The position numbers and the translations under genes are program-made. From Diphasiastrum complanatum (lineage: Eukaryota > Streptophyta > Lycopodiopsida > Lycopodiales > Lycopodiaceae): 64,000 nucleotides of DNA. Each line of letters opens with the position of its first letter. Positions within the stretch are counted from its first letter, which is position 1. The notes under the pieces were generated by a model. The model worked only from the letters and a program-made list of their open reading frames with translations. It made no database searches and was not told where the DNA came from. This document shows, piece after piece, positions 13,456-55,179 of this stretch. The stretch is from positions 22,636,006-22,700,005 of the forward strand of contig CM055095.1 in the NCBI GenBank assembly GCA_029204225.1, given 5' to 3'.

Positions 13456-16068
13456 AATAATATAAAGCCTAAAGGGGTAAAGTAGGCATTTATCTCAACA
13501 GAAGTTTCACCCTAGATGTGGCCAAGATGATGCTTGATCACAAACATAGAAACTAAGGATGACATAATCAAAATATCAATGCATCAAATGTATCCAAGAT
13601 CAAAATAGCTTCAAAGAAGATTGATACCGATAGACTTAAAACATGTATAGATGATCAAGATTACATAAAAAATGAAATATTACAAGCTTGATTAATACAA
13701 TAGAGTTATGCCAACTCTAGATGATTCAACTTGGCTACATATAAAGATAGAAAAGAGATCTACTTTAGGAATAAAACAACTCCTACTTATACTTGTTGAG
13801 GTTTGCAATAAGTCACCGAGATGCAATGTATGTGGTCCAATCCATGCCATCAACTCATATTGACCCAGAATTACTTCTAGAAGTGTGCAACCCATAATAA
13901 ATGACTTATGTGCATAGCAATTGGCAAGTAGCTTCTAGAAGCTCTCATTTGAATGTACTAGAGGACCCAAATTTTGGGTAAAGTGGGATTTTGCATATTC
14001 CTTCACATGTGGCACATAGCTTCTCGCCTAAGCTTAAATGCCCATTTTGAGAACATTTGAATTAGGCTTGAGGCCTATCATGAACAAATTGGGATTTCCA
14101 TATTCTTTCACAATGAGCATATGAATGTCCATAACAACCTACAAGGAAATGCAATAGAACGTCCCACAAAGAATTCAAGAGCAAGAGTACCTTTCAAGAA
14201 ACTTTGAATCTGGGTTATGAGGTCCCAAGAGGATTCAAACCCTAGTAACTACCACTAGTTCATTGACTCATTCCTTAAGTCCAGCTTGGCAATTTCATAT
14301 GTCCGCATGCTCCTTAAATTTACTCTCAAAATTCAGATGTGAGTAGTAAGGATTAAGCTAGACGTGGGCCTCTCCCCATTCATGAGACCGTGATCTCAAG
14401 GGGTGATATAGATGAAATCATGCATGAGTCTAAGAATGGAGCTATCATCATATGAGTTCTTTTCTTTATAGAAAATATGTAACTTTGTCACCGATTATGT
14501 CTTGGGTAGCTATAGGGCATTAGAGCTTCAAAGTTACATAATACAATTCTTGGTTGACATGGTGGGTTCTTTGCATGCTAGTGCCTCTAGCTCTCAAGAG
14601 TTGTGATATATAAGTTCTCAAGATTGTCTTAGGAGATATTGAAGTTATCTTACTTGAATGACAAAGTGAGGGCATTAATCACGTATAGAGATGATCAAAG
14701 TTAGGGATAGCATGGAAGAAGCAATTGTTGAAAGGTTCATTGCTTTAGAAGATTTGGCGTAACCAAGGTTTGCTAGACTTGAGAAACCTTTTGGTAAGCT
14801 AAAAACTATGCATGTTTTCACATATAAGACAATAACAAAGTGTATGTACAGTTCAACTTATCCGTACATTGAAATATCCAAATTTACAAGTACATACCCA
14901 AAGCACATGATTACACATGATAATCTACAAACATGTGGGTTCGATGATCAACACAAAAGTGCCTCTCACCTAAATTGCCCTTTAACACAACACAAGCACA
15001 ATATACCTTAATGGTGAGCGGGATAGCCACTCTACTACACGCATTCCAAACTTTCACATAGCACCTATGTATGCTTGACTTTCATAGCAACCTCTCTCAA
15101 CATCGTAGGTGAGCTCTCCTAGACGGGTTGGACTCTCTCATCACAACATCTCACTTCATATTGTATTGCCTAGTTACTAGTCACTGCTATGTTTCTCTAG
15201 CAGGACCATAAATCCTTCTAGTTCATTCACTTGCTTTATGGGGATATTGCACAGATGTGACACTTCTTGTAGATCACCACCACCCTAGGACTCTAGAAGC
15301 CTTCATTGAAACGTCACTTCCTCAATCACTTTCATGAGCGCCGGATCACCTCCCTAGAACATCAGAACTAGTGCCTCAAATTAGTGATAACACTAGCACT
15401 TCAATATAGACTTTTCTTGATTTATGACCATAGCTCCACATTATAAATAGTATCATGAAGGACTGCCTTTGCACAACATTTAACATGGACATAACTTCTC
15501 ATTGACTGAAATAAGTACCGTTGTTGGACACACTTCACAAATTGATCATTACAAAGAAGAGTCTTCAACTATAGAAAAGCCAGCACTAAACAGTAGTACA
15601 AACTTGTTGAAGAATCAAACGATCATACACTTGAATGGATAACTATCTAACATATAAAAAAAGGTCAGATATTATTTACCACAAAGTCACCAACTAAGAC
15701 TCCTTAAGCATATAACTCCATATGAATAACCTTTTTAAGAATGACCTTTTCACAAAGCAAGCCTTGAATACATTGCAAACATGTCCACCTTCTGTGCAAT
15801 ACTAGAGCTGATCCTTATATGTTCGCTTATCACCCAATTGCAAGAGAACTATGTTAGATGAGATTGGTAAGTAGCACTGAAAAGTACACATGAAAACCTA
15901 GTAAAGATATTTCATCCCCATATGCATAACCATTCTAATCAGAACAAGCTGGCATCAACCAGTCGAAAGAGTTATTTCTGATAAAGGCATAGAAAGTGCA
16001 CATGGGGCAAAGTTTAGGTATGTTCGTGCTAAGGTCATCTGTAAATCAAAAGCTTAAATAAAAGCTAC
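13456..16068 (-). other. Intron sequence of the PP2A B' gene (5' part); no other gene seen
   Basis: Begins on the minus strand with the GT at 16068-16067 after the conserved SSHFQ codons. I find no continuation exon (the family continues with VAERAL...) down to position 1, so the intron would exceed 16 kb if the gene is intact. The sequence is A/T-rich and holds no ORF I can support. Confidence 0.5.
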
Positions 16069-17289
16069 CTGGAAGTGTGAGCTATTCAGACAACGAGCAA
16101 TTTGTCGAAAAAGGGGAACCATACACCGCTGAAACTCTCCTGTCTGAGTTCCTTCCAGTACCTCCTCTAATTCACCCAGAAACAAAACCTCTTTCTGACT
16201 ATTTGTCAATGGCCAGTACTTCAGCAGTCCTGTAATAACAGTATCACCTAGCTTGGGATCTTTCTCCACAAATTGAGTTATACAGTAAGAAAGTTGTTGA
16301 TGGTACGTGGCAACGCACTTTGGCTTGTGCAATGGAATTAATGCCCGAACAAGAAATAATTTGTGCTCTTCCTTTAAAGGCAGTGTAAATCCATTGATAA
16401 TACTTCCTAGTATCTCAAGCAATTCGGCAATGCCATTATGCTTATCGGTCTCATAAATGAAACGATAAAAGATGTTGTTGATTGCCTTGCGAATGAAAGG
16501 GCGGTGGACCATAAATTTCCCATAAATTCGATGCAATATGGTTTTTAAATACTCCCTTTCTCTAGGATCTTCCGAGTCAAAAAGGTCCAGTAATTTTAGC
16601 ACAAATGTGTGATCAATATATCTCTTTGCAGTTTTAGCATCCGTCTCTGTTGAAACAACGTAACGAAGAAGGAACTCGTAGACAATCTGCAGGTGTGGCC
16701 AAGCAGGATCCATGCTTGGCTCCTCTTCTTCTGGATCATAACTATCAGACTTGCTATTTTCACGTGAGGATGGAGGCAAACTGCGAAAAAGGTTGGCATA
16801 CAGCATCTTCATTATGTCTTCCATCACAGCTTCTGTAAACTTGCCTGTCCCAGAAGTTACAAAATCCACTATTTCCAACAGAGTCTGGCGTTTAACTTCC
16901 CTTTCCCTGGCATTCTTGCTAGGGTCTGAAAAATCAAAAACGTAAGAGCAAAGGTAGAGTTTCCTCACAAAAACATTTAGCCTCTCAGAACTTGGAACGT
17001 CTCTGAAGGAAGGCAATGACTCATAGAAAGGGTTAGGGCCACCATTGGCAGGCAAAGAAGAATTATGCTTGTCCCTTGCGGTTGAGTTCATCCCTGGGGC
17101 AGATATGTTTGAAACTGAAAAAGAATTTCTGCTAACAGAAGCAGATGCCAGTCCACCTCGTCCTCCCTGCGCAATCCCTCCGGAGGCAGTGGATGCCCCA
17201 GCTCCCAGTGGCAAGCTGATTCCTGTATCATGATTCTCATTCTTGGAAGGTTTCCTAGGAATAAGCTTCTTCAACCTTATGTTAATCAT
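16069..17289 (-). CDS. Protein phosphatase 2A B'/B56 regulatory subunit, first coding exon
   Basis: B' (B56) subunits join the PP2A scaffold and catalytic subunits and recruit substrates for Ser/Thr dephosphorylation. This exon gives 407 codons. It has a basic start ([16 protein letters not shown]), a Ser/Gly-rich variable N-terminus (to about residue 85), then the HEAT-like B56 core. Hallmark words are [17 protein letters not shown] (about 107-123), [15 protein letters not shown] (197-211), [15 protein letters not shown] (245-259), [18 protein letters not shown] (263-280), [16 protein letters not shown] (286-301) and [20 protein letters not shown] (321-340). The exon ends after SSHFQ with a GT donor at 16068-16067, a position where I recall plant B' genes being split. 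The family usually has about 500 residues, so roughly 90 C-terminal residues are missing here and must be downstream beyond a long intron. No stop or shift interrupts it; this looks like a working host gene. Confidence 0.93.
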
Positions 17290-21460: not shown

Positions 21461-21723
21461 TATAAAGTCCTAAATCCAAGGATCCTATTCTAAGCATGCC
21501 AATCACAAGCAAGACAAGGGAACCTGATGGTGGACAAACCAACCCAACCAAACCTAGATCGAACGGATCTAGCCCCCAAGCTATGGATCAATCATTCAAA
21601 GAGGAATGAGGAATCACACCAAGAGCATCATGCCATTGGTCATGCTATCAAGCATACACTAGTGAGAGCCCATGCACCACTAGTAGTGCATTGTGACACC
21701 TCACTGGACACCTCTGCAGCCTA

Positions 21724-21728
21724 TCTAG
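21724..21728. repeat. Target-site duplication (left) of the nested gag-only element, TCTAG
   Basis: The uninterrupted copy of this LTR in the right Gypsy-1 LTR (about 31594-31612) reads cctatctgggccacg. The left flank here is TCTAG and the right flank (27284-27288) is TATGG, each one change from TCTGG. So a 5-bp duplication of TCTGG is inferred, with one later substitution on each side. Confidence 0.75.
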
Positions 21729-22375
21729 TGTGAAAAATACAGATCCTAAGTGGATCTAAACTCCAAGATCATTGGCTTGAATGCTTGCACTCCAAACTAC
21801 ATAAGCTAGGAATTGGCAACACATTCTATGCTACCTAGAATGCAAAGAACTTGATCAAAAAGCATTTATCACAAATGGAAACTTCCATAAACATCAAGTG
21901 CGGCCCAAAATAGCATTATACAGTCCATAATACATCAGCCTACCACTTTTGGAAAGCACCTAAGATCATACACACAAAGCTTGAACTCAATCACTACACA
22001 ATGCCAACAATGGAAGGAGAACCCAATAGAAAAATCTCTCATTAAGCAAATGAATACAATGGATCTACTCCAACCTGTTTCTCCACGGCCTACCTGCTAT
22101 ATATAGCTGAGAGAGATGACTCTCTCTCCTCTCTCTAGACCCTCCTTACCTAAAATATGCCCTATATAGGTAAAATTGGCATATATGTCCAAAATACATG
22201 AAAATGGACTCATTTCGAAGGTCTTGAAGTTTGACACTTCTTCATACTGAAAAATTACACTTACTAAAAATATCTAGACCTGTTTCACACGTGTGAAAAG
22301 TCAGATCCTAAACTATGTGCCATTTTTAGCAATTTTGGCCTAAAACTAGACAAGGAAATGTTGACAATTTTCACA
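21729..22375 (-). repeat. 3' LTR of the gag-only element
   Basis: 647 bp, TG...CA ends in both senses (minus sense TGTGAAAATTGTC...TATTTTTCACA). Contains a TATA-box-like CTATATATAG at 22097-22106 and a second, cctatatagg, about 60 bp to the right, upstream of it in the minus sense. Only three substitutions separate it from the 5' LTR. Confidence 0.93.
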
Positions 22376-22390
22376 CTCCCTCTTCAACTT
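22376..22390 (-). promoter_or_regulatory. Polypurine tract of the gag-only element
   Basis: Minus sense gttgaagagggag directly abuts the 3' LTR. It primes plus-strand DNA synthesis in LTR elements. The ORF stop codon overlaps its upstream edge. Confidence 0.85.
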
Positions 22391-25300
22391 AACTTGCTAG
22401 TTTTACAACACTACTTTGTTCCAACTTAAGAATGATCTCCATCATCAGAATAGATCTCTTCTCAAGGATCCTAATATGTACAAAATAGGACACAACATAA
22501 TTGATATAGATAATAGTGTCCATATAGGATGCTTCACTATTTCTTACATCAATTTTACATAGAATCATAAAAATGGTACATGTAAAAGAACATAGAATCT
22601 CAATTAATGAATTCCTCCATGTATCCATCTCTGGTTTCTCTGTAAAATAGCAGCAAACAAGTTGTAAATGAAAGTGATCAACAAGTGTTTGCATGCCTCC
22701 TCCACATTTCACTATACATATAGTGAATGCAACATGTATCTCCATGAATGAACTTCCATCACCACCTTGCCTTTGTAGATCTTCAATCCATGAAAGCCTT
22801 TGAGTGAATGAATGCCAAAAAGATGTGTTCCCTACTCCATTTGAATGACCAAAACCTGAACTTGAAATACTTGAAGTACCTCCACAAGATTTGCACACAA
22901 CGCTTGATCCTACAATGTCAACAAGTTGCCAATTTGCCAACACTAGAATACTAGATCTTGAACTTTGTTCAAAAGAAAACATATTGACCACTTCAATACC
23001 TTTCAAGATCTGAATGAATTCATGTACTTGATCATACAAACCAGCAATGATAACTATTCCATCTCCAAGATCCAAAGGATGCAAAACTATGGAACTAGTT
23101 TTATTGAAATTTGACAATTTCAACACATTGACATAACAATGTTCATACATGAGATTAGGCAAGTGAGGTAGAGTAAGAAGACACTTCCTTGCAGCTCCAA
23201 AGACCTTACTTGAACCTTCAAGAACCTGTAAAAACAGATCCAAAATGCCTTGACCATTTGTCTCTTCTTTGATGCTTTTCACTAGCTTCGAATTGCCACT
23301 TGTCTCTTGGTGTTGATGAAGCAATCCAAGATCAACCTCTTGATCTTCCAATAAGACATCAAAGATCTTGCATATGTGAACATCTTCAGATCTGAAACTC
23401 TGAAGATACTCCCTCTCAAACACATGATTAAGATCCCACAAGATCTCATCAATGCTCAAATTTGACCCTTCACTATAGTTAGTGAAAACAATGCCACCAT
23501 CATAAACCAAAAGATAGATTCCAACATTTCCATTTAACATGAAGTAGAGTAGGTGAAGATGAGTATCAAACCTAATCAAAACAGCCCTCTTGAGTTCATA
23601 ACAAACCTCAATAAGCTCACCAATGATATCTCCCTTGCCTTGAAGAAGTTGCCACTTGAGTTGCTCCATGTAGTCTTCTTCAACCAACCTTTTGCCATCT
23701 TGACCATGAATGAACAATCCACCACAATCATAGAATGCTTTGAGTTGATGAAGAGATGTTAGATCCATGCTTTGGATCTTCCCAAGAACCACTCTTCCAT
23801 TGCCCTTTCCTTCACAAGACTCCCTCTTAATGCTAGCACCACAAAAGTTAGAAACCTCCCTCTTGATAGTTGCACCATAAGAAGTAGAAGACTCTTGAAT
23901 ATTAGAAGCCAAGAAAAGAATCCTTAGTACCTTCAACATAAGAGTGATTGAAGTACTCTCTCTTTTCAAACATGAACTTCTACTCAATGATTTAGGTAAT
24001 GAGTCATATGATAATGATTCTTCCTCACTATCGTTCATAAAAACATCATTCAAAGTACATCCTACTTTGAACACTTCACATACTTCTCTTCCTTTTGACT
24101 TGTGATCTCCCTCACCAAGTCTCATGATAGAAACCTTTGATCTACTCTTTTTATGAAGAAATGTGACACCACTTGTTGCACAAATGACTTTATCACAAAA
24201 AGATGTAAAAGAACCATTTCCTTCAAGCATGCTCAAAGCACCATCATCTTTTCCCACATGATTACATACATCAATATGAAAAGAATTAGAAGAACAACCA
24301 TCTTCTTGCAAAGAATGACACTTAGCATCTCCATCTTTTTCCATATGAACAAACAAGTCATTAGCAACAATCACTTCCAAAGAAGAATCTTCATCAACTC
24401 CATTGATGAAGTTAGCTCCTTCCTTACCTTTTCCATTTTTGCACTTGCCATCTAGCACCATTGAAGAACCACCAAGCCTTGGAAGTCCATGAGTAGAAGA
24501 GTACAAACATGATGCTAATTTAGCTCCACATGACTCCATATGACTAGTAGGTAACACTAGTGCATCTTCAAGATCCAATGGATCCAAAAAATTGACCATA
24601 GATTCACCAAAGCTTGCCAAGTTAGCACAACAATTATCATCTCCAAAAAGTACATTAGATCTCAACCTAGATCTAGCATTTTGTTTCTTATGGCATTCAT
24701 TTGCAAAATGTCCTTTTATCCCACAATAAAAACATTTGAACTTGGACTTATCTTGCTTCCTACTTTGCAAAGAAGAAGAATGCTTTCCATGCTCCAAACT
24801 ACCTTGCTTGGACCACTTGCCTTTGAACTTGCCCTTTGTGAAAAGAGCTTCTTCATCTCCACCTTGTGTTGATGCACCACCACCTTTGGCTTGCAACCTA
24901 TGCTCTTCAGCCACCAAGATCTCTTGCAAGTCATTGACACTTGGCAAAGACTTTTGTATAGCAAAGCATTGTACAAGGTTAGAATGTTCATCAAGCAAAC
25001 CATTCAACATGACTTGAACTAGTTCCCCATCCTTTATGCTTTCATCTATGCATGCTAGATCATCATTCAAGGATTTAACCTTCAAGACAAATGAATGTGC
25101 ACTCTCTCCCTCTCTTTGACAACTTTGGAAGATTTGCCTTCTTAGGGTGAGAACCCTAGATGTGGATTTGGACTCATAGATCTTCTTCAAAGCATTCCAT
25201 GCTTCACTTGAAGAAGTACATTTACCAACTTCTTTAAGAAGTTCATTGGTAACATTCATCTTTATGATATGTAAGGCTCTTTTAGCCCTTCTATCAAAAT

Positions 25301-25529
25301 TTAGTTGCTCTTGAAGAATTAGAGGTCTTTCTTCAATTCCCACAACTATATCCATTAGCTCATTCAACTCTAGTAAAGACTCCATCCTCACTTTCCAAGT
25401 TGAATAGTTTGTAGAGTTTAACCTCTCTTTAGCTTCCAACATGATTCCACCATTGGATGTCATGATGCTAAAATCTTCTTGTGTCCTTAGGCTCTGTTCT
25501 AATGCACCTAGCACTCTCCTTTCTCTCAA
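22389..25529 (-). CDS. 1046-residue gag-containing polyprotein with a long unrecognised C-terminal region
   Basis: Residues about 30-230 are a Copia-type gag: LNSTNYSTWKVRMESLL (37-53), the RAKRALHIIKMNVTNELLKE helix region (81-100), AWNALKKIYES (110-120), the UBN2-like SFVLKVKSLNDDLACID (146-162) and LQEILVAEEHRL (201-212). A CX2CX4HX4C zinc knuckle lies at 266-279 (CFYCGIKGHFANEC). A Copia protease (DSGA) should follow, but none does. Instead about 765 residues run on without a stop to the polypurine tract. They include Cys- and Ser-rich parts, a near-repeat GATIKRE / GASIKRE (about 565-590) and a hydrophobic, Leu/Ile/Phe-rich second half. No RT YxDD, integrase DDE context or RNase H words are present. 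M1 may not be the start: M23 (MTSNGG) also precedes the gag. The frame is intact, as expected for a young insertion. I do not recognise the C-terminal region. Confidence 0.85.
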   Translation of the reverse strand: MRERRVLGALEQSLRTQEDFSIMTSNGGIMLEAKERLNSTNYSTWKVRMESLLELNELMDIVVGIEERPLILQEQLNFDRRAKRALHIIKMNVTNELLKEVGKCTSSSEAWNALKKIYESKSTSRVLTLRRQIFQSCQREGESAHSFVLKVKSLNDDLACIDESIKDGELVQVMLNGLLDEHSNLVQCFAIQKSLPSVNDLQEILVAEEHRLQAKGGGASTQGGDEEALFTKGKFKGKWSKQGSLEHGKHSSSLQSRKQDKSKFKCFYCGIKGHFANECHKKQNARSRLRSNVLFGDDNCCANLASFGESMVNFLDPLDLEDALVLPTSHMESCGAKLASCLYSSTHGLPRLGGSSMVLDGKCKNGKGKEGANFINGVDEDSSLEVIVANDLFVHMEKDGDAKCHSLQEDGCSSNSFHIDVCNHVGKDDGALSMLEGNGSFTSFCDKVICATSGVTFLHKKSRSKVSIMRLGEGDHKSKGREVCEVFKVGCTLNDVFMNDSEEESLSYDSLPKSLSRSSCLKRESTSITLMLKVLRILFLASNIQESSTSYGATIKREVSNFCGASIKRESCEGKGNGRVVLGKIQSMDLTSLHQLKAFYDCGGLFIHGQDGKRLVEEDYMEQLKWQLLQGKGDIIGELIEVCYELKRAVLIRFDTHLHLLYFMLNGNVGIYLLVYDGGIVFTNYSEGSNLSIDEILWDLNHVFEREYLQSFRSEDVHICKIFDVLLEDQEVDLGLLHQHQETSGNSKLVKSIKEETNGQGILDLFLQVLEGSSKVFGAARKCLLTLPHLPNLMYEHCYVNVLKLSNFNKTSSIVLHPLDLGDGIVIIAGLYDQVHEFIQILKGIEVVNMFSFEQSSRSSILVLANWQLVDIVGSSVVCKSCGGTSSISSSGFGHSNGVGNTSFWHSFTQRLSWIEDLQRQGGDGSSFMEIHVAFTICIVKCGGGMQTLVDHFHLQLVCCYFTEKPEMDTWRNSLIEILCSFTCTIFMILCKIDVRNSEASYMDTIIYINYVVSYFVHIRILEKRSILMMEIILKLEQSSVVKLAS

Positions 25530-26624
25530 TAAATGAAGAAGGAGAAGATCTTAAAAGATTTAGAACCCTAAATGACCTCTATCTTGAAACTATTTGGCTT
25601 TCAAGCATAGAAAGGAAGATTGAAACACATGCAACACTTTGCACACACTAAGAATGGATTACAAACTCAAACCAACCTGAACACACTCTTGCTTAAGCTC
25701 TCAAACTTTCCAGCAAGTGACCAAATCAAGTTATGGTGTGAAGAGTTACTTGCATTCTTAGAAAATACCCAAAACTAGGATGCCAAAATTACCTAGTAAT
25801 GAACAAACTTGATCAACATATGATCACCACACTAAGATATTGATTCAACCTGTAAAACCACATGTAAACCACACTTCTAAAAGTTTATAAACTCCAGCAA
25901 GTGATAAATACAAGATTTAGAGGTGAATGAATGAGCACACTTAGTGAATCACAAGACTAGCTTCACTATCTTGTCAAAATTTGGTGTTTAGATGTAGATC
26001 TAAGATCACTTCACATGAGAATGTTCCTCAACCTGTTAAGAACCTGAAAACACACTTGCATAATGGTTAACACCTTCCAGCAAATGCTCCAATCAAATTA
26101 CATAAGGAGAGTTACTTACATGCTCAACAAAGTACACCAAAATTTATGCCAAAATTGATGACAATCTTTACAATATGCTCTTCACAATGGAGCTTACAAT
26201 ATGTTCACCCAAAAAAGGGGATCTTTCATCCAAATGGGAGCTTTGCTCAGCCTTTAGGAGAATTACAACTCACTCAAAAGAGCATTTGTCATCCACTTAA
26301 GGAGAAGTTTCATCCACTTAAGGAGAGTGTTCATCCAAGAATGGAGATTGTCAACAATAGGATTGAAAAGAACATTGTTAGTATTGAATATGCACAAGCC
26401 TCACAATCACAAATGATTAGGTGTTATGATCTGATCCAAAATAGTTTCTTTTCAGCCTCTGATCTTCAATAGACCTGAAATATGCTTTTGATCCACAAGT
26501 TCAACTCACAAAACAAAGGTTAGTAAGATTTGATCAACAAAGCAATGCAAAATCATGCTAGAACTTGATCAAACATCCAAATATCACCAAAAATGGAATA
26601 CTTACTGTAAATAGAAGCCAACCA
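25530..26624 (-). repeat. Untranslated leader of the gag-only element, with internal repeats
   Basis: Between the primer-binding site and the ORF. Three imperfect copies of about 180 bp begin with caacctg at about 25673, 25849 and 26030, each followed by accaca/acactt-type words and ccagcaa(g/a)tg. A smaller direct repeat catccacttaaggaga occurs twice at about 26291-26325. The leader may hold the packaging and dimerisation signals; that is inference. A 108-codon plus-strand frame (26146-26472) is probably chance. Confidence 0.6.
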
Positions 26625-26636
26625 GCTCTGATACCA
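26625..26636 (-). promoter_or_regulatory. Primer-binding site (initiator Met-tRNA) of the gag-only element
   Basis: Minus sense TGGTATCAGAGC, the standard plant initiator-Met tRNA complement, directly abutting the 5' LTR with no gap. Confidence 0.95.
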
Positions 26637-27283
26637 TGTGAAAAATACAGATCCTAAGTGGATCTAAACTCCAAGATCATTGGCTTGAATGCTTGCACTC
26701 CAAACTACATAAGCTAGGAATTGGCAACACATTCTATGCTACCTAGAATGCAAAGAACTTGATCAAAAAGCATTTATCACAAATGGAAACTTCCATAAAC
26801 ATCAAGTGCGGCCCAAAATATCATTATACAGTCCATAATACATCAGCCTACCACTTTTGGAAAGCACCTAAGATCATACACACAAAGCTTGAACTCAATC
26901 ACTACACAATGCCAACAATGGAAGGAGAACCCAATAGAAAAATCTCTCATTAAGCAAATGAATACAATGGATCTGCTCCAACCTGTTTCTCCACGGCCTA
27001 CCTGCTATATATAGCTGAGAGAGATGACTCTCTCTCCTCTCTCTAGACCCTCCTTACCTAAAATATGCCCTATATAGGTAAAATTGGCATATATGTCCAA
27101 AATACATGAAAATGGACTCATTTCGAAGGTCTTGAAGTTTGACACTTCTTCATACTGAAAAAATACACTTACTAAAAATATCTAGACCTGTTTCACACGT
27201 GTGAAAAGTCAGATCCTAAACTATGTGCCATTTTTAGCAATTTTGGCCTAAAACTAGACAAGGAAATGTTGACAATTTTCACA
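26637..27283 (-). repeat. 5' LTR of the gag-only element
   Basis: 647 bp, matching 21729-22375 except for about three substitutions (for example a/g in ggatct(a/g)ctcc, g/t in aaaat(a)(g/t)catt, and a/t in ctgaaaaa(a/t)tac). TATA-like CTATATATAG at 27005-27014 would drive minus-strand transcription. The right flank TATGG (27284-27288) is the second target duplication. Confidence 0.93.
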
Positions 27284-27487
27284 TATGGGCCACGTCATCC
27301 AGTTCTCCAATGACTCAGTAATAGACCCATACAAATCCACAATCAAGTGTTTAGGCCTACAACCATTAATTATGACCATGTACACTTAAGGGCCCCAATT
27401 CCCTTATAGTCACAATTAACTTACGGGTTGTTGGTCTACCGTTCCCTAGCGTGGACACGCTACCCGAGACCAGTCATGGGCATGACA

Positions 27488-27501
27488 TTCTTCCCCCCTT
27501 A
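27488..27501 (-). promoter_or_regulatory. Polypurine tract of Gypsy-1
   Basis: Minus sense taaggggggaagaa directly before the 3' LTR start TGTCATGCC. The same arrangement recurs at 32108 (Gypsy-2) and 61149 (Gypsy-4), which supports a shared lineage. Confidence 0.8.
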
Positions 27502-27539
27502 TTCAAGTTCTGTCCTCATAACTTAAAACTGGGAAAGTT

Positions 27540-28160
27540 CCTCCTTAATTCCTTCCTGTTACCAGGAATCATCATCGTCTGTACATCCCTTCCATCGAAC
27601 CAGATACTCGGTAACTATACGATTTCTCAATCGTTTAGTTCTTGTATCCAAGATCTTTTCGGGTTCAAGACGAGATACACCCAATGATTTATCCAACAAG
27701 TCCAACTGATCTCCAGATCCAAGATGCTCTCCTTCACGTAGACTTTTTCAAAGACGGCTTACGTGAAATACGGAATGCACATGAGATTCATCCGGGAGTT
27801 CAATTGGTAAGCTAAGGATCTGATCTTAAACGATCCTCTATATCTAGGGGACAATTAGTAATGCTAGTCAGTACACATTACATTTGAATCCATCGAGATT
27901 CTCAAAAAATACCCAACCCCCCACTAGGAAGTCTCTTGGTGATCTTTTCAGGCTTGCATAATGTTGGTCCCCATCCCGGGTACACTAGACATTCTCACAT
28001 GCAATCAGTAGCATTTCCCGCATATCATGTAGGAAATCCGCTACTTCTTGAAACTTGAAAGCCCGAGTCTCTACCTCCATGGGTGATATAGGTTTAAAAC
28101 TATACGTAAGCACGCACGAGTTATAACCGATAGCCAAATGCTTACTATAACTCAATCTCC
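27540..28160 (-). pseudogene. Gypsy-1 pol 3' remnant: integrase C-terminus and chromodomain
   Basis: On the minus strand, 27680-27560 reads ILDTRTKRLRNRIVTEYLVR, then WKG and an acidic DDDD-W stretch. This is the chromodomain that ends chromovirus integrases and targets insertion to marked chromatin. It aligns word by word with the better copy at 61385-61176. Around 27990-28100 the words match the 61640-61740 region (cgcatatcatgtaggaaatc), which is integrase C-terminal. Frame breaks and stops are frequent. Confidence 0.75.
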
Positions 28161-29865
28161 ATCAAGGATAACTTCCTCTCCGAGGAGATTGTTAAGAAAA
28201 TATGAATACATATCTTAATTGATCTTCTGATCCATATCTCTACAGATATCCTGATCTGTACACAACACTTTCATAACCAAAAATCTTGTAACTTGGTTAT
28301 CTTCTAAGAGAGAATATTTCTCAAAGAGTGCTATTTCACAACCAAAAAATCTCAACCGAAGATTAACCCAAAAGAATATATTGTTAGCATGAATTTATTT
28401 CTTTGCATCAACCACACAGATCTCAATCTAAACTAAGATCAAGTTGACTAAATTCAGCAAGGAACAGGTTTCAACAAACTTCTCATCTTGCAATAGAATT
28501 CCAAGTTCTGACACAAATCAATCGGACTTATTATCAGCTGATTTTCTACCGCAAGAGTGCTTTCTAAATTTTTTCCCTTTAATTTTTCAAACCTGATATA
28601 TACTATAATCCATAAAGGATTTCTGTAATATCTAAATATTCTATCGTTTCTGATTCATAAGACAGGTCCATCATCGATATAATAGATTCCTCCTTGAATC
28701 TCTGACCGAGGTTTCTCCTTGATAATTCTCTTTTCTTCCTACTTCTCCTCTTTTTTTAACAAGAAACGCCACGAGTTTCCAAGGGGTGCAGATCATTTAA
28801 GATTTGCCCAGGAGAAGAGTCTAAGAAGAGATCCGAGAAAATCTTGAAAGCCAAAAGAAGTGTTGCATCATTGTAAGTAAATTCCAATGATGTCCCAACA
28901 CAATGACTTTAACAAAAGATCTTCGTTATTACCAAGCTTGAGAATTGACCCATAAATCAGAAAAGGATTACTTGAAGATTCAAGCAGAGAAAACACATTT
29001 AGAAAATGGTTTTATTAACCATCTTTGTGACATCGTCCCTGGTCAACGGGTAATCGAAATTACCTTCCAAGGAATTACAAAAAAGTCAGGTTAATTTATG
29101 AGTTAAGAAATTCACCAATATATCTTTTATAAAGAAATTGCTTGCCGGGTTTTCAGTTTTGTAAATTTGAGATATCCAAAAAAAAAAAGGGTCATGACCA
29201 ATATCTCAAATTTCTGACAAAACACTCGTTTTGGAATTCAGCCCAGTCACAGTTCTATGGGTTGCACTCACGTGAGGCTTGACCCAAAGCACCAACGAAG
29301 CTCGCTTTTGTTTACTCTGGGACGTTTGTACAACGACAAATGGTTTATCCAGTCATCGACAACTTTCGGACATTACTCACTGGAAAAAATTTCTGTTTTT
29401 AAGCCCAAGCTGTAAATCCTAATGGTTAATTATCGATTAAATAGATTTTGCATTCGGTGTTTTTTTTTATTTAGTTTATTGCCCAAATGAAATTACGACA
29501 CACCACAGTCCAAAATTTTAGCCATGTGTATTAAATATCTTACGGGGTCATCACTGTCGAGTAATGCCATGCTAATTTTCATTAGCCACCCGGAACTAGA
29601 TTTGCATTCCCTCTATTTGCATATGAAAACTGAAAAAATTAAAACAATTTACGTTCAATTGAACCCATTACGGATATATTTTTCCTAATGGAGCAATGTC
29701 CTAAAAAACGCAGTTTTTACCGGACCATATCGTGCTCATAGGATTTATACCAATGAGGATGCAAATTAGGTCTTAAGCAATAAAAATTCAGAAAAAACTA
29801 GTTAATGTAACAAAAATCTATTTACCATCCCGACTTGAGCCATTACAAGTAGTAAACACTTTAAC
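28160..29865. other. Gypsy-1 internal noncoding sequence, related to 32400-34100 and 55900-57000
   Basis: A/T-rich without ORFs. Short words such as aatcttgtaact..gttat..aagagaatatttctc (28280-28325) recur in 33820-33860 and 56490-56530 in the same order. So this is the same noncoding internal region in three elements, although this copy is the most diverged. Confidence 0.5.
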
Positions 29866-30335
29866 TGCACTTGCTTTGCGTGGACCAAAAATAGACATGG
29901 AAAAAATCGAAACGAAATTTTGTTTCCATAAAAAAACTCGGCGATCGAGAAACCCCTCCCCACCAACCGTGCAACTAGCACAAGACTCTATGTTAACAAA
30001 AATGTTAACTGAAGTTTACCTACCAAGCACCCCCCCCCTTCTTCCTCCACACGCAAATACCCTCATTTCACGGGTTTCTCCAAAACCCGAGAGCAGGGAA
30101 GGCGAAAAAATAGCGCGCAGAAGTCGAAGAGAGAGCGAGAGCGAGAGAGAGGGCCTGTGGTCATGAGGAGGGATGGAAGCACGCCATTCCCCCACCACAC
30201 ATTCAGCCATTTGCTTGCAGGTTTTAGCAGGAGGGAGGGCGCCCAGAATGCAGCATACTTGCATGATTTTGAAGCCAATACCATTAGTTTTTTCCAGATT
30301 TCTTGCTCTTAAAGATGCAGGAAGCATTAAAGCCT
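29866..30335. other. Gene-like GC-richer island inside Gypsy-1, possible captured host fragment
   Basis: Base composition shifts to CpG-bearing sequence with a GA/CT-rich stretch (gaagagagagcgagagcgag at about 30126-30145) and C runs, like a plant 5' UTR. The flanks are A/T-rich element sequence. Frames in both directions (up to about 115 codons) show no family I know. It lies between the pol remnant and the primer-binding site, where captured host sequence is sometimes found in LTR elements. Host origin is inference. Confidence 0.35.
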
Positions 30336-31291
30336 TCTATTCAACTGTTACTTTGCATATTCTAGAAGTTTCTTGGGTGATTTTTATAGCTCTTTCCATT
30401 CAAGCAAGCCTACGCATTCACACTTTGAAGCAAAAAACCCACCTTATAGCTGTTTTTTCTTTATGCTTAAGGCTTTGGAAGGAAACCTTTGTTGTTTTAG
30501 CATATTACAACTGCTATTAAGGTGTTTCAATAGTTTCTTTACATTCTTACATGCATAAGCAAACTATAGTTACAGATTTACATCAAGTCGGTTTCTCAGA
30601 GGCTGAAAACAGGGTACATGCTGCCCAATTTTTTGCAAAAAGCCTAATTTGCAGGTTGCCTCATCCTATAACTCAGAATAGGCTTTCCTGTAACCCATAC
30701 CATCCAAATGATGGCTTTACTGACTCACATTAGCCTGCAAAACTTGTTAGTTTGCAAAAAATACAGCATATTCCTGTAAATCACCATGAACTCGCCATGC
30801 AAATCCTGTAAGAAACCACCAACACTCACAACCAATGATTAGTCTTTTTTTTGTGCTTCTTTTCCTGCTTTCCACTAATTCAAGCCAAAAATGGCTCAAT
30901 AAAAAACAAAAGGCAGCCCATAAAAACCACCTAAATCACTGCTAAAAGAACAAAAAGCCGCAAAAACCAGCATTTCCACTGATTGATCTAGTTGCTAACG
31001 GAAAAGTGTCCCTAATGAAGTAAACGGCAACACAAATTTACTTCCTGAAAACCAATATGAAGTGTTTAAACATCGAACCGATTGTATACCTAGTAGTGCA
31101 CTTACCATAGAACCAATTACACTTCAAACAAGGAAATCCATAGAAAGAATAATCCGCACTTTTATCACTTTGTTGCATACTCCATTGAATTCTCAAAAAA
31201 GTGTCAGGATTCCATATCACACAATGGAAAAATCCCCACAATTCGAGATTTCTCTTGAACACAAATCAATGGCTAAACGAGCTTAGAACTT
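30336..31291. other. Gypsy-1 internal or leader sequence next to the primer-binding site
   Basis: No ORF of note; frames of 60-74 codons only. Contains tttgcaaaa/cctgtaa phrases repeated with variation around 30640-30810. It would be leader or deleted gag territory. Confidence 0.4.
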
Positions 31292-31303
31292 GCTCTAATA
31301 CCA
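31292..31303 (-). promoter_or_regulatory. Primer-binding site of Gypsy-1
   Basis: Minus sense TGGTATTAGAGC, one mismatch from the initiator-Met site, one base from the 5' LTR. Confidence 0.8.
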
Positions 31304-31304
31304 A

Positions 31305-31801
31305 TATAAAGTCCTAAATCCAAGGATCCTATTCTAAGCATGCCAATCACAAGCAAACACAAGGGAACCTGATGGTGGACAAACCAACCCAACCAAACCT
31401 AGATCGAACGGATCTAGTCCCCAAGCTATAGGTCAATCATTCAAAGAGGAATGAGGCATCACACCAACAACATCCTACCACTGGTCATGCTATCAGGCAT
31501 ACACTAGTGAGAGCCCAATAGGTATACTTATACCCTCCAAGGCCCATGCACCACTAGTAGTGCACTGTGACACCTCACCGGACACCTCTGCAGCCTATCT
31601 GGGCCACGTCATCCAGTTTCGCAATGACTCACTGATAGACCCATACAAATCCACCATCAAGTGTTTAGGGCTACAACCATTAATTATGGCCATGTACACT
31701 TAAGGGCCCCAATTCCCTTATAGTCACAATTAACTTACGGGTTGTTGGTCTACCAGTCCCTAGCGTGGACACGCTACCCGATACTAGTCACAGGCATGAC
31801 A
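31305..31801 (-). repeat. 5' LTR of Gypsy-1 (uninterrupted copy)
   Basis: 497 bp. It matches 21461-21728 joined to 27289-27487, with a 29-bp extra segment (about 31516-31544, ataggtatacttatacc...) absent from the left copy. It provides the empty site (cctatctgggcc, about 31594-31605) that dates and places the nested element. Confidence 0.88.
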
Positions 31802-34170: not shown

Positions 34171-34497
34171 CCCTTATAAGCCTTTGTTTTAATAAAATAC
34201 ATTCTCCTGGTTAATTAAATGGCGGGGGGGCATGGAGGCCTCTGACTCGTGATAGATGTAGAGCTGCGGACCTGTCCGCCTCCATCTTGGGGTAGGTGAT
34301 GGTGCCTATGTATACCTATATGAATCTGTGGGGGGGGGAGGTGATGTTGTTCAAGGTGGTCCACAGGTAGAGCACTACCACCAGCGCAGGCAGCGCCCAC
34401 AAACAGCGCATTTTTTGCTTTAGTGTATGCAAGGAAGGGGGGGGGGGGGGGTAGTACTCTCTCCTGGTGATTAGTTGTTTGATTTGACAAGTAGGGG
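34171..34497. other. G-rich sequence between Gypsy-2 and Copia-2
   Basis: Contains G runs at about 34221-34227, 34331-34338 and 34437-34451. No coding signal that I trust; a 91-codon minus frame is Pro/His-rich low-complexity. Confidence 0.5.
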
Positions 34498-34502
34498 GAG
34501 GG

Positions 34503-34775
34503 AGTTAGAATTAAAGTAGAACTATTGTGTTACTGTATTGCGAGTCCTATCAGTGGATAAGGACTAGTTGGCCTTGCCACGAGATGAGTCGACGGGACAC
34601 GCGTCCTATCAATGGCAACATGAGCCATGCATGGGTTGCCATAGTGAAGCACTATATGTACAGCGTATTTTGGTTTTGATAAATACAGTTGCTACGTGAG
34701 CTTGGTGTGGAGAGTGTTTCTGTCTGTATTATTGTATTGCATGATTTGTAATCTTGTCCAGAACAAATTCTAAGT
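34503..34775 (+). repeat. 5' LTR of Copia-2
   Basis: 273 bp. Shared words with the 3' copy include aaagtagaactattgtg, aaggactagt, gacacgcgtc, gccatgcatgggttgccatag, gctacgtgagcttggtgtgg. The end is fixed by the adjoining primer-binding site. Confidence 0.85.
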
Positions 34776-34788
34776 TGGTATCAGAGCC
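34776..34788 (+). promoter_or_regulatory. Primer-binding site (initiator Met-tRNA) of Copia-2
   Basis: TGGTATCAGAGCC directly after the 5' LTR. Confidence 0.93.
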
Positions 34789-36864
34789 ATACAGGGAGTG
34801 TACACAGGACAACGTCGTCGTTGAAGATAGCTTCAGGAGAAGAGTCTTTTGAGAGTTCGGGGTTTACGACGAGTTGAAGGTGGAAAGTAAAGCACTTGTC
34901 TACAATTTCTAGCATGCACAGGCTTGCCAAGCTTGAAACTGTGAGAGGATTCGAAGACAAGACTTGTTGGTTTAATCTAAAAATCAATAAAATGGAATTC
35001 TGAAATTTCGTATTTTAAAGAAATGACTCTGGCAAAGTGTGGGGCTATTCTAAATGAGATTTAAGGACACTGTCGGATTTTTCACAAAAAGCCGACATTG
35101 TTGTCTTTTTGCGACACTATCGTCTGTGGCAGTTTTAGTTCATTTTTGTAGAGTGACAGTTTTAGTTAATTTATACAGACAGACTGTTTACGACCAATTT
35201 TCATCGGTTATCAACAATCAATTTCTGAGAAGGAACTGGATGAATGCCAGCGAACACCAGCCAACTGGCAATCGCATTTGACGACCTGATTATTTATTAT
35301 AAATCAGTTGTTCATACATTTTTTTTTCAAGTTTTGTAGCAACGAATCAACATTGTGAATTGTGAAGGAGTTGAGTGTTATTACGCGACGCCTCCTGTGC
35401 TCTTATCAAGCAGATCATTCACAATCAGAAAGTATTGTTGTTAGCTCTCTATCAAGCTTTCAAGCTTGAACTCTCTTGAGCATTCTAGCTTAGTCTTTTA
35501 GAGATTTATTTTAGAGTTGTTGTTGCGCTACTGCTTATTAGCATTGCGCTTGATTCATACTTACATTTTAGCCATTCAAAAATAGCTTAGAGTACACGAC
35601 TTCGATGCACAACTTGTTGTACTCATTTACATATGTTTTGCTTTCATATTGAATCAATACTATCTCTTATTGCGTTCAGCTTCATCTCAGAATGTGTGCA
35701 TTTCTTTAGTTCTTCGCGACTAATTATTTGTCTAGTGATTCACAACTAATTATTTGTCTAATGTTTCAATACTTTATGTTTGGCTACGTAATCACTTAGT
35801 ATCTAGCGATTTCAAAGTTAGTTGCTAAAGATTGAATGTGATTTTCATCACTACTACTTTGTTCAATTTTTGATAGTCGTAGTCATGCATTGGAAGTAGG
35901 AAGTTTTCACATTACTGCCAAAGAGTTGTAAATAGTTAGCCAAGATCAATACTTGCAAGGAAAACTCTGGCCTAGGGTTTGGAAACTCAAAAGCAGTGTT
36001 TTCTCTCTATTTTGAACTAATTTCAATGTTTTAAGTAGATACAGTAGGGCGCCCTAGCACTGGTAGGAATCCGGATGCCAGAGGGCTGCAGATGGTCGTG
36101 GATCACAAGATGAGTTATCTACATTCTCAAAGTGCAACCATAGTTATGAAAGCTTTCAAAGGAAAAGAGGAAGCTTGAAACAGACCGTGGAGGAGGCACG
36201 GGCGTCGCGCGCCCTCAATGCAGCTACTACTTTAGCGTAAAGTGGGGGCCTGGTGTATTAAGGAGTGAGCTTGGGCGCGCAAAGTTGTGCGTAGCAATAG
36301 GATTGGGTTCCATCGTGACGGACGGTGCAGATTTTACGATGGAAAATGGACATGGACCATAGGATATGAAGGCACCATTGGATTGCCTCAAAACCACCAA
36401 AAACCTCAATTGAAGGGGCCTGAAGAGCAGAAGACACTTGAACTTCATTAAAAAAATTCAAATTGAAATTGGAGTTGGGTCCCTTCACATGTGAAAGGTG
36501 AAGAAATTGTTCAAAAATTCAAAAAATCCCTATTTTCTAGTCCTTTATCCATTTTGACCCAAACGAAGGCCTATAGCCTCCAAACGAAGGGCACCAGGAC
36601 TGTACCTGCAAGTATGGTACTGTAGTGGAGAACGCGCTCAGTTGATGTCAAATCTCTTTGGCCCCTTTCAGGGAGCAGGTAGTCAGGAGCTTTAGGTAAG
36701 AAACATTTCACGTTTGAAAAGCGACTTGGCTTGCGAAACACCACGTAAGCGACAGGACGCCCTGGTGTGAAATTTTAGCAGGTCATCAAAACAAGTTATT
36801 GATGTCGTCATTGTACTTAAAACACGTCTTTTAGCCAACGGTTGCAGTTTTAGGCAGTTTTGAG
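34789..36864 (+). other. Copia-2 leader, about 2 kb, noncoding
   Basis: Unusually long for a Copia leader; it may itself contain an inserted fragment. Frames are short. Two near-copies of agtgacagttttagtt-type words (about 35130-35170) are visible. The stretch 36020-36330 is more GC-rich (ggcacgggcgtcgcgcgccc at about 36196) but has no recognised gene. Confidence 0.5.
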
Positions 36865-39800
36865 ATGGCAAATATGGGAGAGTCCATTTTCATTGAAAAT
36901 AACAAATTGGACGAGATTTCCAACTATGCGGTGTGGAAATTCAAAATGAAAAACATACTGATAGAGAAAGAACTATGGGATGTCATCACAGGTGATGATA
37001 GAAGACCGCTAAATGAAGCGGACATTAAAGTGTCCGACAAGAAGACAATGAGAGCTTTGACCTTCATCAACTTGTCAATGAAAGACCACGTCATTACCCA
37101 CGCAAGTGATGCCATTACGCCTAGACAGACATGGGATGTGCTAAAGGAGTAGTTTGAGACGTCAAATCCATCAAGGATTATGTTATTAAAGTCAAAACTG
37201 AATAGTGCCCAAATGGAACAAGGAGAGCACAATCAGACTTATATGACCATAATCAAGACAATGAGGGATGAACTACATTCTATTGGTGAGCGCATACGTG
37301 ATGTTGAGCTGGTGACAATCCATTGTGTGACATTGCAGCACCTTATCAAATGTTTGTGAGTGGAATAGCATCAAGAGAAAGATTGCCAACCTTTGACGAG
37401 CTCACAAGAATCTTGATGCAGGAGGAGCAATGACGAGAAATGGTGAAAGCTAGATATCAAAATACTGACGATCAAGCACTTGCGACATGCCAAAAACAAG
37501 GGCAAGAAGAAGTCTAAGCAGGAATTCCCCAAGACTCGGGAGAATGAGGAATCATCCAGCAAGACCAATAAGAAGGGAAAATGTTTCCATTGCGGCAAAA
37601 AGGGCCATTGGAAGAGCAAATGTTGGAAATTCTTGGCGGAATCAGGCAAGGAGAAACCGAAGCAAGCAGGTAATCTTGTCGACGATTGAAGACTCTAGCA
37701 TCTTCATATCAGCATTGTTATCTAATCAAGATGATCAAGTGTGGTACATTGACTTGGGAGCCATAAGACACATGACAAGTAACAAAAATTGGTTTAGTAG
37801 TCAGAAAGAGTTGGATAATGAAATGTCTCTTGCAATCACCAAAGAAGACGGAAAAAGAACACGCACTCTCACTCAATACTCTATCACACCGTAGCAAAAG
37901 CATGATGATCAAGGAGGTACTTTATGTACTAGGTTTAAAGAAAAATCTATTTTTTGTTGGTGTCATTACTGATCAAAAGTTGAAAGTATAATTTGCCCAT
38001 GATCATTGCTTTGTGAAGGATGTGAACCAAAAGTTCAAAGTCATTACGGATGGTATAAGGAAGCCCAACACTAAATTGTACAGGTTGAATGCTACAACCA
38101 AGGGGAAACATGGACTTATCTTGTCCATTCCATCACAAACTAAACTGTGGCATAAAAGGCTTGGTCATTTGAACCTAGGAAGCCTTAGCTTGATGAGAAA
38201 ACTGGAAATGGTGAAAGGATTGCCTATGATGGAAGACCACTTGAAGACGATGTGCGAATCATGTGTGTATGGGAAGCAACATCGAGAGAAATTTAACAAA
38301 GGTGGTGTTGCAAGGGCGAAGAACATCTTGGATTTGATCCACACAGATCTATGCGGGCCTATGAGAACTATGTCCATGGGTGGAGTTTTTTATTTCATGA
38401 CCTTCATAGATGATATGTCACGTAAGACGTGGATTTACTTCCTAAAAAAGAAATCAGATGCTTTTGCCACTTTCAAGAGCTTCAAAGCATTGGTCGAAAA
38501 TCAAACAAGTAGGAAGATCAATGTCCTAAGGTCTGATAGTGGAGGCGAGTACAAATCTACTGACTTCAATGATCTTTGTGATCAATGTAGGACCAAGAGA
38601 CAATTTATGCAAGCTCATACTCCTGAACTCAATGGGGTAGCTGAGCGCAAGAATCGTACAATTGTGAAAAGTGCCAGATCTATGCTAGTTGAGATGAAGC
38701 TACCAAAAGTTTTTTGGTCAGAAGCATGCAATACTGCAGTCTAGTACCATAGTCTATCTTCAAAATAGAAGTCCTACCATTGCCGTACCAAAGATAACAC
38801 CTGAGAAGGTGAACCACTTGCAAATCTTTGGATGTAAGGCCTTTGTACACATTCCTAAAGAAGAAAGATGTAAGCTTGATGTAAAAGCTATCAAGTGCAT
38901 ATTCCTAGGATATTATGATCGTGTGAAGGGCTACAGATGTTTTGATCCAGTGGAGAAAAAAATACATGTAAGCCATGATGTTATCTTTGATGAATCCAAG
39001 ATGTATGAAGATGAGGATGCTGAGAAGATGGACACATCCAGTGGGAAAGATGGTACAGTGAGGATTCCTCTTGATGATGATCCATTTGTTGACTTTCCTA
39101 GTGATGGACATGTGGATACACCTCATGATACTGCTACTCAACCTCAAGACATAGGTTGGAGATGTAGAGATAAACCTTTTGGTGCAAAAAGAATTGAAGT
39201 TGCAGGTGACAAACTCAAGGAGAAGGACGTCTTGTGGGATACATTTTCACCAGAAAGCCGATCACTTGACATGAAGCTCCCTAAGTGGTTTGAGAGATTG
39301 ATGGAGAGTTGCAACATGGATGACTTTCCAAGATCATCTAGCCAGGGAGAGATACGAAGATCAACAAGAGAGAAGACACAACTTGATAGATATGAAGCGA
39401 ATAATGCTCTCTTATCTAGCATCATTCAAAGCAAAGAACCCCGGACTTATGTTGAAGCGAAGGATGAAGACATTTGGGTCAAGGCCATGGCAGAAGAGAT
39501 GGAGTCATTTGCTAAGCATAGCACATGGGACTTAGTGGAACCACCAGTTGGCAAGAAACCCATTGGTTATGAATGGGTATACAAGACTAAGTACCATGCA
39601 GATGGAAGTATAGCAAAACACAAATGTACCATGCAGATTGAAGTATAGCAAAGCATAAAGCAAGATTGGTGATCAAAGGTTATGCACAAATTAAAGACAT
39701 CGACTATGAGGAGACCTTTGCGCCAGTACATAAGTGGAATACTCTATATCTACTTGTTACTTTAGCTTCGGTCTTTACATCAGATGGATGTGAAATCTGT

Positions 39801-41035: not shown

Positions 41036-41041
41036 GGAGAG

Positions 41042-41315
41042 AGCTAGAATTAAAGTAGAACTATTGTGCTACTGTACTACAGGTCCCATCAGTGGGTAAG
41101 GACTAGTAGGCCTCACCACAAGGTGATTCGACAGGACACGCGTCTTGTCAAAGGCAACCTTAGCCATGCATGGGTTGCCATAGTGAAGAACTATATGTAC
41201 AATGTATTTTGGTTTTGAGAAAAACAATTGCTACGTGAGCTTGGTGTGGAGAGTGCTTTCTGTCTATGTTACTGTGTTGCATGATTAGTAATCATGTTTG
41301 GAACAAATTCTAAGT
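41042..41315 (+). repeat. 3' LTR of Copia-2
   Basis: 274 bp, preceded by tttagggagag (polypurine tract) and followed by GAGGG. It matches the 5' LTR with scattered substitutions. Confidence 0.85.
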
Positions 41316-54491: not shown

Positions 54492-55177
54492 TGTTGGAGG
54501 GTTTGCGGATTCCAAGACAACCCTAACCATAGTTAATAAGTGAGAGGGATTTGGCACCCTACGTGTGTAAGTCCAACCTGATGATCGCATAGTTAATTGA
54601 TTAGTCAGAAGTTAATAAAAGGACTTTAGGCCTTTTTGTGGGACTTTTATTGTCGCAAGGCATAATAGTCAAGCTAGTGAATAAAAAAGACTTCCCCCAA
54701 TTTTTGAATTTCAAATAATAAGAGAGGTGGAGATTGGCCAATCGGATTTGAGGCCAAAGCCCTAAAATCCACTATATATAGTGGTGGATTCGAGTTATTC
54801 TGCACATTCACTCTTCATTTCAATAAAGCATGTGGATCCTCTTTCAAATGGATATGGAATGTCCTTGCTCTTCTTATTTCTTTCTCTATCTCTCATGTTT
54901 TCTTTGGATTTGCTAATTGTTGGAGTTTATCTTGTGAGAGAGAAAGAGAGAGATAGAAGAATAAGATCTATCATTGTTGAGTAGTGCTAGTATTAGTGGA
55001 TAGTAGTGTTAATGGTTAGTGTTAGATGTGGACCACAAGCATGTGCTTGATTATGAACTATGCTATCGCTCTCATGAGAACGAATCTCCGCATGACAACT
55101 GGTTAATCCTCTTCTTCTCCTTTGATGCTTGAGTGCTTGGATCTAGGGTTGAAAGTGGATAGGAAATACCCGCTACA
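54492..55177 (+). repeat. 3' LTR of Athila-2
   Basis: 686 bp, TGTTGGAGGG...CCGCTACA, homologous to the Athila-1 LTR (43207-43959) over its whole length with many substitutions. The preceding purine tract and absence of a primer-binding site after it mark it as a 3' LTR. Confidence 0.82.
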
Positions 55178-55179
55178 CA

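Follow-up and report, generated by a model that had tools for sequence, protein, structure and literature searches.

The window analysed here is a stretch of 64,000 nucleotides from Diphasiastrum complanatum (contig CM055095.1, positions 22,636,006 to 22,700,005). Window positions 21729-27283 hold a Copia long terminal repeat (LTR) retrotransposon of 5,555 bp and 36.7% GC, sense on the minus strand, whose single open reading frame (ORF) joins a gag to a long tail in which a relic of polymerase (pol) sequence can still be recognised. The features of the element and of its target site are the following (window coordinates, strand, feature).

26637..27283, minus: 5′ LTR, 647 bp, TGTG...CACA
26625..26636, minus: primer-binding site (PBS) TGGTATCAGAGC, zero gap to the 5′ LTR
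25464..26624, minus: leader, about 97% identical to the leader of the probable helper
22389..25463, minus: single ORF, 1,024 aa from the ATG, stop included
24672..25463, minus: gag part (type 1, hereafter gag-1), Retrotran_gag_2 and DUF4219 (Pfam)
24693..24737, minus: CCHC zinc knuckle, residues 243-257, Pfam score under the curated cut-off
22392..24671, minus: 760-codon tail, residues 265-1024, no Pfam domain
23415..23729, minus: decayed reverse-transcriptase (RT) segment, residues 579-683, YVDD replaced by YDGG
22376..22385, minus: polypurine tract (PPT) GAAGAGGGAG, abutting the 3′ LTR
21729..22375, minus: 3′ LTR, 3 substitutions relative to the 5′ LTR
21724..21728, no strand: target duplication copy TCTAG, flank of the element
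27284..27288, no strand: target duplication copy TATGG, flank of the element
31598..31602, no strand: TCTGG at the unoccupied target in the paired LTR (31305-31801) of an older host element

Paired LTRs, PBS, PPT and a target duplication, the latter one base off per copy in the window, are the class features of an LTR retrotransposon. A first-pass annotation of this DNA had described two 647-bp LTRs with about three differences, a zero-gap PBS and a purine tract, and all were recovered: the LTRs differ by 3 substitutions and no gap, TGGTATCAGAGC, which presumably pairs with the initiator-Met tRNA, adjoins the 5′ LTR, and GAAGAGGGAG adjoins the 3′ LTR. A TATA-like CTATATATAG is present in the LTR at about nt 270. 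Within the leader and PBS (25464-26636) there is also a 120-bp imperfect internal duplication (74%). The 5-bp target duplication had been called mutated, and this was borne out because the unoccupied LTR reads TCTGG, one change from either flank. Two changes in ten bases are more than the rate predicted from 3 in 647 for the LTRs; the excess may be due to chance, to a fill-in error or to an assembly error, and we have no other explanation for it. The older element that received the insertion in one of its LTRs extends over window positions 21461-31801, and its LTRs are about 94% identical. Nothing was found in the window with Rfam at gathering thresholds.

The ORF fills the interior without interruption, as the first-pass annotation had it. 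The frame is open from stop to stop for 1,053 codons, the next longest such frame in the window having 422, and the chance of 1,046 open codons is about 4e-26 at the stop density of the window (0.054). The protein of 1046 residues announced previously had to be shortened, as it counts from a TTG: the first in-frame ATG is at 25463, giving 1,024 aa, and no in-frame ATG lies upstream of it in the translation of the leader. Large retrotransposon derivatives (LARD) have a long non-coding internal domain; here the frame stays open from gag onward and ends only 13 nt short of the 3′ LTR. Pfam recognised gag only in the 1,024-aa protein (Retrotran_gag_2, PF14223, E 5e-22; DUF4219; and the sub-threshold CCHC knuckle). 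The enzymes of an autonomous Copia element were missing: no Pfam protease, integrase, RT or RNase H was found, the element as a whole gave no integrase match, and the RT relic has no YVDD. Compared with a protein database, the whole protein retrieved two gag-pol relatives (E 2e-6 and 0.3), while the gag region alone had no relative at E 0.01. Solved structures yielded nothing beyond zinc-knuckle chains (E 0.18 or worse), and viral contigs no match.

Copies were searched for in the host assembly (GCA_029204225.1, 1.74 Gb in 5,176 contigs). An exact 32-mer of gag-1 occurs 255 times. The LTR has at least 37 matches, a lower bound, with 12 at 97-100% identity, 21 at 83-86% and 4 at 76-80%; all ten loci of the 97-100% class besides the window were retrieved with their surroundings. 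Gag and tail were present in six of them (L009, L013, L015, L016, L020 and L023), and no tail was found within the retrieved stretch at the other four (L010/L011, L018/L019, L024/L025, L026/L027). At L010 (1-5324), an LTR and leader of the window type are followed by sequence that matches neither gag, tail nor helper pol, which may be a truncation or another variant. L016 (1-2201) carries a second tail with a truncated gag joined straight to an LTR piece, beside a further internal region, in a composite array. A protein search with the tail scored 59 copies, all near 100% and free of internal stops, spread over 19 of the contigs C1-C24 and smaller contigs; best-scoring copies are over-represented in this set. 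The frames measured 1,035 (n=35), 1,053 (n=16), 1,057 (n=2) and six single values, 1,053 being read as gag-1 and 1,035 as a second gag type, gag-2. Of 40 scored tails, 25 had one and the same score, which corresponds to a single change relative to the tail in the window.

These counts rule out that the pol-less element is a one-off deletion of an ordinary Copia element, an outcome that the first-pass annotation had named as fatal to its proposal. Perfect 5-bp duplications flank L009, L015, L020 and L023, that is four of the five tail-bearing copies whose flanks were inspected; L013, in which the outer end is incomplete, lacks one. LTR pairs differ at 3 positions in the window element and at 0-2 in four sister copies, and so few differences mean that the elements moved recently. 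None of the 145 scored gag-1 matches lay in a frame long enough for gag-pol, one artefact aside, a 4,330-aa frame on C7 that enters a stretch of N. Neither the weak LTR matches (L029, L050, L051, L052/L054) nor a DNA search with the tail led to any diverged tail. L052 and L054 belong to a distant relative (LTR 61%, gag 67-74%, pol 66-70% nucleotide identity), pieces of which lie on both strands, as if rearranged.

At two loci, L021 and L028, the LTRs share about 85% identity with those of the window element, and the leaders about 97%. The L021 frame is open over 1,301 aa and encodes gag, Pol_BBD, gag_pre-integrs, rve, SH3 and RVT_2; that of L028 is interrupted by one internal stop, and a perfect 5-bp target duplication flanks this copy. 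In both, gag, integrase and RT domains are in Copia order (rve 499-597 preceding RVT_2 824-1066), which, with the PF14223 gag, places the family in the Copia superfamily. In the host genome, an exact 32-mer from the L021 pol was counted 2,246 times. This gag-pol relative, hereafter B, is the probable helper of the window element, whose own lineage is called A. With many copies and a plausible pol donor at hand, the proposal of a recently mobile, pol-lacking and gag-bearing Copia derivative of the type called TR-GAG (terminal-repeat retrotransposon with GAG domain) was upheld. One tail-bearing copy (L020) is located within an LTR of a helper copy (L021).

The six sister copies, which had been found by LTR and not by gag, turned out to be mosaics. 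We counted substitution sites at which the six A copies agree and the two B copies agree, excluding other sites and gap columns. From site 24 to 401, the window and its sisters stand together against B (93 sites); from 463 to 2552, sisters and B stand together against the window (199 sites); from 2573 onward, window and sisters are grouped again, the pol of B being unrelated sequence there. Not one of the 292 informative sites was contrary, and the pattern was the same in 6 of 6 sisters: U3 and tail of the window type, R, U5, leader and gag of the helper type (U3, R and U5 being the unique 3′, repeat and unique 5′ parts of the LTR). The two breakpoint intervals are, in window coordinates:

26821..26883, minus: first interval, LTR nt 401-463; upstream, A-type U3; downstream, common to the helper in sisters
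24711..24732, minus: second interval, sense nt 2552-2573; helper gag-2 joins the tail in sisters

The first lies downstream of the TATA-like CTATATATAG and so probably in R; the second falls in the codons of the zinc knuckle. Relative to the helper gag, gag-2 of the sisters carries 1-2 nonsynonymous changes, along with 2-4 synonymous ones. Such a mosaic would be the signature of a first-strand transfer between two RNAs followed by one later switch, and the six sisters probably descend from one founding event. An earlier exchange may have preceded it. Over sites 463-1803, the R, U5 and leader of the window differ from B at 37 sites, and in alignment block 1700-1800, just before the gag ATG, 23 of 100 columns differ, against 0-3 per block in the remaining leader. 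This suggests an exchange between the window lineage and B that ended before gag, because the window leader is close to that of B, yet the synonymous divergence (dS) of gag is about 1.07. Between gag-1 and gag-2 the nonsynonymous divergence (dN) is 0.125 and dS, near saturation, 1.07, a ratio of 0.12: gag is constrained.

The tail had no relative in the protein database at E 10. In each of its halves, the composition at the codon positions resembles that of coding sequence (p 9e-11 and 4e-9, compared to 0.05 in the leader), and 760 codons would be open by chance with a probability of about 4e-19 at the measured stop density. When the tail was compared by BLASTP with the L021 polyprotein alone, residues 579-683 aligned to RT residues 905-1016 (E 4e-6). 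The Smith-Waterman score of this segment, 91, was reached by 0 of 500 shuffles, and its best score among the Copia sequences at hand was with the pol of its own family, the next being 62. An in-frame profile match gave E 0.005 (1.5 for the best of 50 shuffles), linked tblastx of the tail against pol E 1.5e-6 (6e-4 for the best of 100 codon shuffles), and a loose DNA alignment a score of 103 (at most 82 in 300 codon shuffles). YVDD was present in all seven sequences where the motif was shown, and YDGG takes its place here. From these alignments, the segment is best described as a pol remnant that has lost the catalytic YVDD. A very large extra coding region, either kept or gained, had been proposed by the first-pass annotation; for the RT segment, kept, as ruined pol, is the part that held, and gained is not. 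The pol origin of the rest of the tail we infer only from its position. Over the 36 nt that directly precede the PPT, similarity to the helper is 81%, a match that is weak alone (E 0.2, one of several such).

Other identities for the tail were tried and set aside. Antisense or out-of-frame pol gave no profile match beyond shuffles, and three of the six linked tblastx matches were off frame by our own reckoning and were treated as chance. For an env-like protein there was no clear case: a single stretch (953-971, 2.07) was clearly hydrophobic, and the others were weaker. A single-sequence structure model of residues 585-1024 was uninformative (pLDDT 33) and was not used.

Selection on the tail was examined in 20 gag-1 copies, taken from the first 44 of the 255 places by position and blind to the frame, and in the six gag-2 copies. 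The tail is open throughout in 13 of the 20 and in 4 of the 6. Breaks in the other 7 gag-1 tails are each private to one copy, and no two of the 26 tails share one; this answers in part the other outcome held to be fatal, a randomly broken tail frame. Older variation is concentrated in one block:

24456..24562, minus: block with nested haplotypes in gag-1 copies, tail nt 109-215

Its first three sites are found in 13 of 20 gag-1 copies and the whole block in 7 of 20, one of these 7 having a different base at one site. The haplotypes are absent from the six gag-2 copies, three of which have one other site in common there. The full block comprises 9 nonsynonymous and 4 synonymous changes by hand count (ratio 0.75), and has the appearance of a segment taken from another, diverged lineage of the tail, itself not found. 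Coming from 13 changes, this ratio is a weak estimate and shows no constraint. The proposed dN/dS comparison therefore gave a strongly constrained gag, and no protein-level role of the tail was shown.

We put the probability at about 0.7 that, taken as a whole, the element is a non-autonomous Copia LTR retrotransposon mobilised by B, with a tail that is open for the sake of its RNA. The anatomy of the element, its helper, the mosaic, the RT relic and the constraint on gag are shown by the sequences; trans-mobilisation, co-packaging and the reason for the open frame, all three, are what we infer from comparing them. The RNA of the element would be packaged, reverse transcribed and integrated by the enzymes of B, with which it has the cis-acting region in common (R, U5, PBS, leader and PPT); by providing its own Gag, it would be a Gag-supplying dependent of B. 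With A and B RNAs in one particle, reverse transcription would begin on the B RNA (R-U5), the strong-stop DNA would jump to the 3′ R of the A RNA, and synthesis would return to the B template at the zinc-knuckle codons, producing U3 and tail of A with R, U5, leader and gag of B. At least partly, the tail is pol without enzymes, its RT segment visible and the remainder unrecognisable. That it is open needs a reason, because 760 codons are open while most similarity to pol is gone. Most likely, the reason is that a stop at the end of gag would leave over 2.3 kb behind it untranslated and make the RNA a target of nonsense-mediated decay; selection would then act on openness, not on amino acids. 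That a dead polymerase should be held translatable over hundreds of codons, its amino acids being free to drift, is a tentative idea, and equally tentative is that the open frame would shield the genomic RNA from decay or keep it competent for packaging. We favour selection for the open frame over selection for its protein, a preference that is unproven, a working tail protein being nearly as likely.

Several results weigh against this explanation. No match of the tail to any Pfam family, RVT_2 included, was reported up to E 10. Strict DNA alignment of the RT segment gave a patch in which 23 of 24 nt match, with a gap of 3 nt; it scores 31, which does not beat the best found elsewhere between tail and pol (32). 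Similarity to pol in the other tail segments (∼655 residues) is not above shuffles. The 17 upstream ATGs in leader and PBS (25464-26636) fit poorly with cap-dependent scanning and could invite decay themselves. As for openness, the 13-change block does not differ significantly from gag (Fisher p 0.15), and the private changes of the 26 tails (51 nonsynonymous, 10 synonymous and 3 stop) are close to the proportions predicted under neutrality (0.72, 0.24 and 0.04; p 0.11) and show only neutral decay. All scored tails are also nearly identical, which makes a frozen accident in a young master possible.

In such an accident, a decaying pol would have stayed open by luck in one or a few masters of a young burst, unselected. 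The youth of the copies, with 0-3 differences between LTRs in five tail-bearing elements, the common score of most tails and the neutral-like private changes are all in its favour. Nevertheless, so long an open run is hardly expected by chance in a tail whose similarity to pol is mostly lost, and no common frame break was seen in the 26 tails, though few masters would yield the same; we hold it to be rather unlikely. A working domain, in which the pol relic was re-used, for instance as a Gag-linked accessory or packaging factor, with its amino acids under selection, is a possible reading, though a doubtful one. It would account for the 760 open codons, their coding-like composition and the absence of stops from the 59 scored copies (with the bias of that set), and the gag of the same ORF is constrained; but the only variation seen to predate insertion is that of the block, at 0.75, the tail has neither database relatives nor a Pfam domain, and the structure model gave no help.

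Two further alternatives appear improbable. The tail outside the RT segment could be a captured host gene or host exons, as in maize Bs1, and the ∼655 residues without similarity to pol above shuffles leave room for it. However, the RT relic is in frame with the ORF, and codon usage of the tail tracks the helper pol (r 0.90 and 0.89) more than one host exon (r 0.57 and 0.62), a weak point since an off-frame control likewise reached 0.93. A search of the host genome for a captured gene was swamped by copies of the family, and the protein database held no relatives of the tail. The gag common to the sister copies could also come from ordinary gene conversion between chromosomal copies instead of template switching. 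Conversion is able to copy blocks too, but identical boundaries in 6 of 6 copies, the 5′ one inside the LTR, fit strand transfer and an amplified founding recombinant better.

The window holds a few other features. Another Copia element lies at 34496-41258, with LTR-like repeats at 34496-34719 and 41035-41258 (88%), a gag-like match at 36919-37629 and pol frames at 38013-39648. A remnant gag at 55171-55430, about 40-42% identical to the gag of the element, has a broken frame. We take the frame at 16054-17289 to resemble an exon of a plant PP2A B′ subunit. A tandem repeat with 39-bp spacing occupies 63668-63856, in four overlapping copies.

Returning to the non-autonomous element presumably mobilised by B, we compared it with known systems. 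A review of additional ORFs deals, in the passages covered, with extra ORFs of either orientation located between pol and the 3′ LTR, and describes no relic pol fused to gag; likewise, a literature search on non-autonomous gag LTR retrotransposons with an RT domain or nonsense-mediated decay gave no degenerate pol among the papers listed. In ruined pol, the element offers a concrete source from which an unknown tail of a gag-only element was at least partly derived, and it makes it testable why such elements hold hundreds of codons open without a recognisable protein. Should selection for openness be true, the unknown domains of Quinta-like gag-only elements could be placeholder frames.

TR-GAG is the broader heading for such elements. 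Arabidopsis AT5TE33540 likewise has LTRs, a single gag ORF, no working pol and a likely full-length helper, and is a Copia element; its ORF has 562 aa (PMC8704663), whereas here a gag of about 264 aa is followed by the 760-codon tail with its pol relic, so that the ORF is not GAG alone. In wheat, RLG_Sabrina, RLG_WHAM, RLG_Wilma and RLC_Angela are similarly semi-autonomous, GAG-bearing or pol-degenerate, and co-evolve with helpers; however, Sabrina-SA is gag-protease, and the non-autonomous copies of Angela have highly degenerate coding regions and not one open frame (PMC9744471). Bursts of ONSEN in Arabidopsis also produced pairwise recombinants, joined in R, at the first strand transfer, and within the coding region, but inside one family and in real time (PMC5668417), whereas here the cross is between a helper and a non-autonomous element and is deduced from mosaics.

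Of the systems described so far, RLG_Quinta and its helper RLG_Cereba in einkorn wheat come closest. Quinta is non-autonomous, with one ORF made of GAG and a domain of unknown function, and its lineages have strongly different GAG within flanks more than 90% identical, which was ascribed to template switching (PMC11302176). As here, LTR ends and PBS are conserved with the autonomous partner. Quinta differs in being a centromeric Gypsy element, with a DUF1 without known function and GAG variants unlike that of its helper (PMC11302176), whereas the window element has a Copia gag and helper, an RT relic in its tail, and sisters with the helper's own gag. With its helper it forms a Copia counterpart of wheat Quinta/Cereba, in which the footprint of recombination between the helper and its dependent is narrowed to two short intervals.

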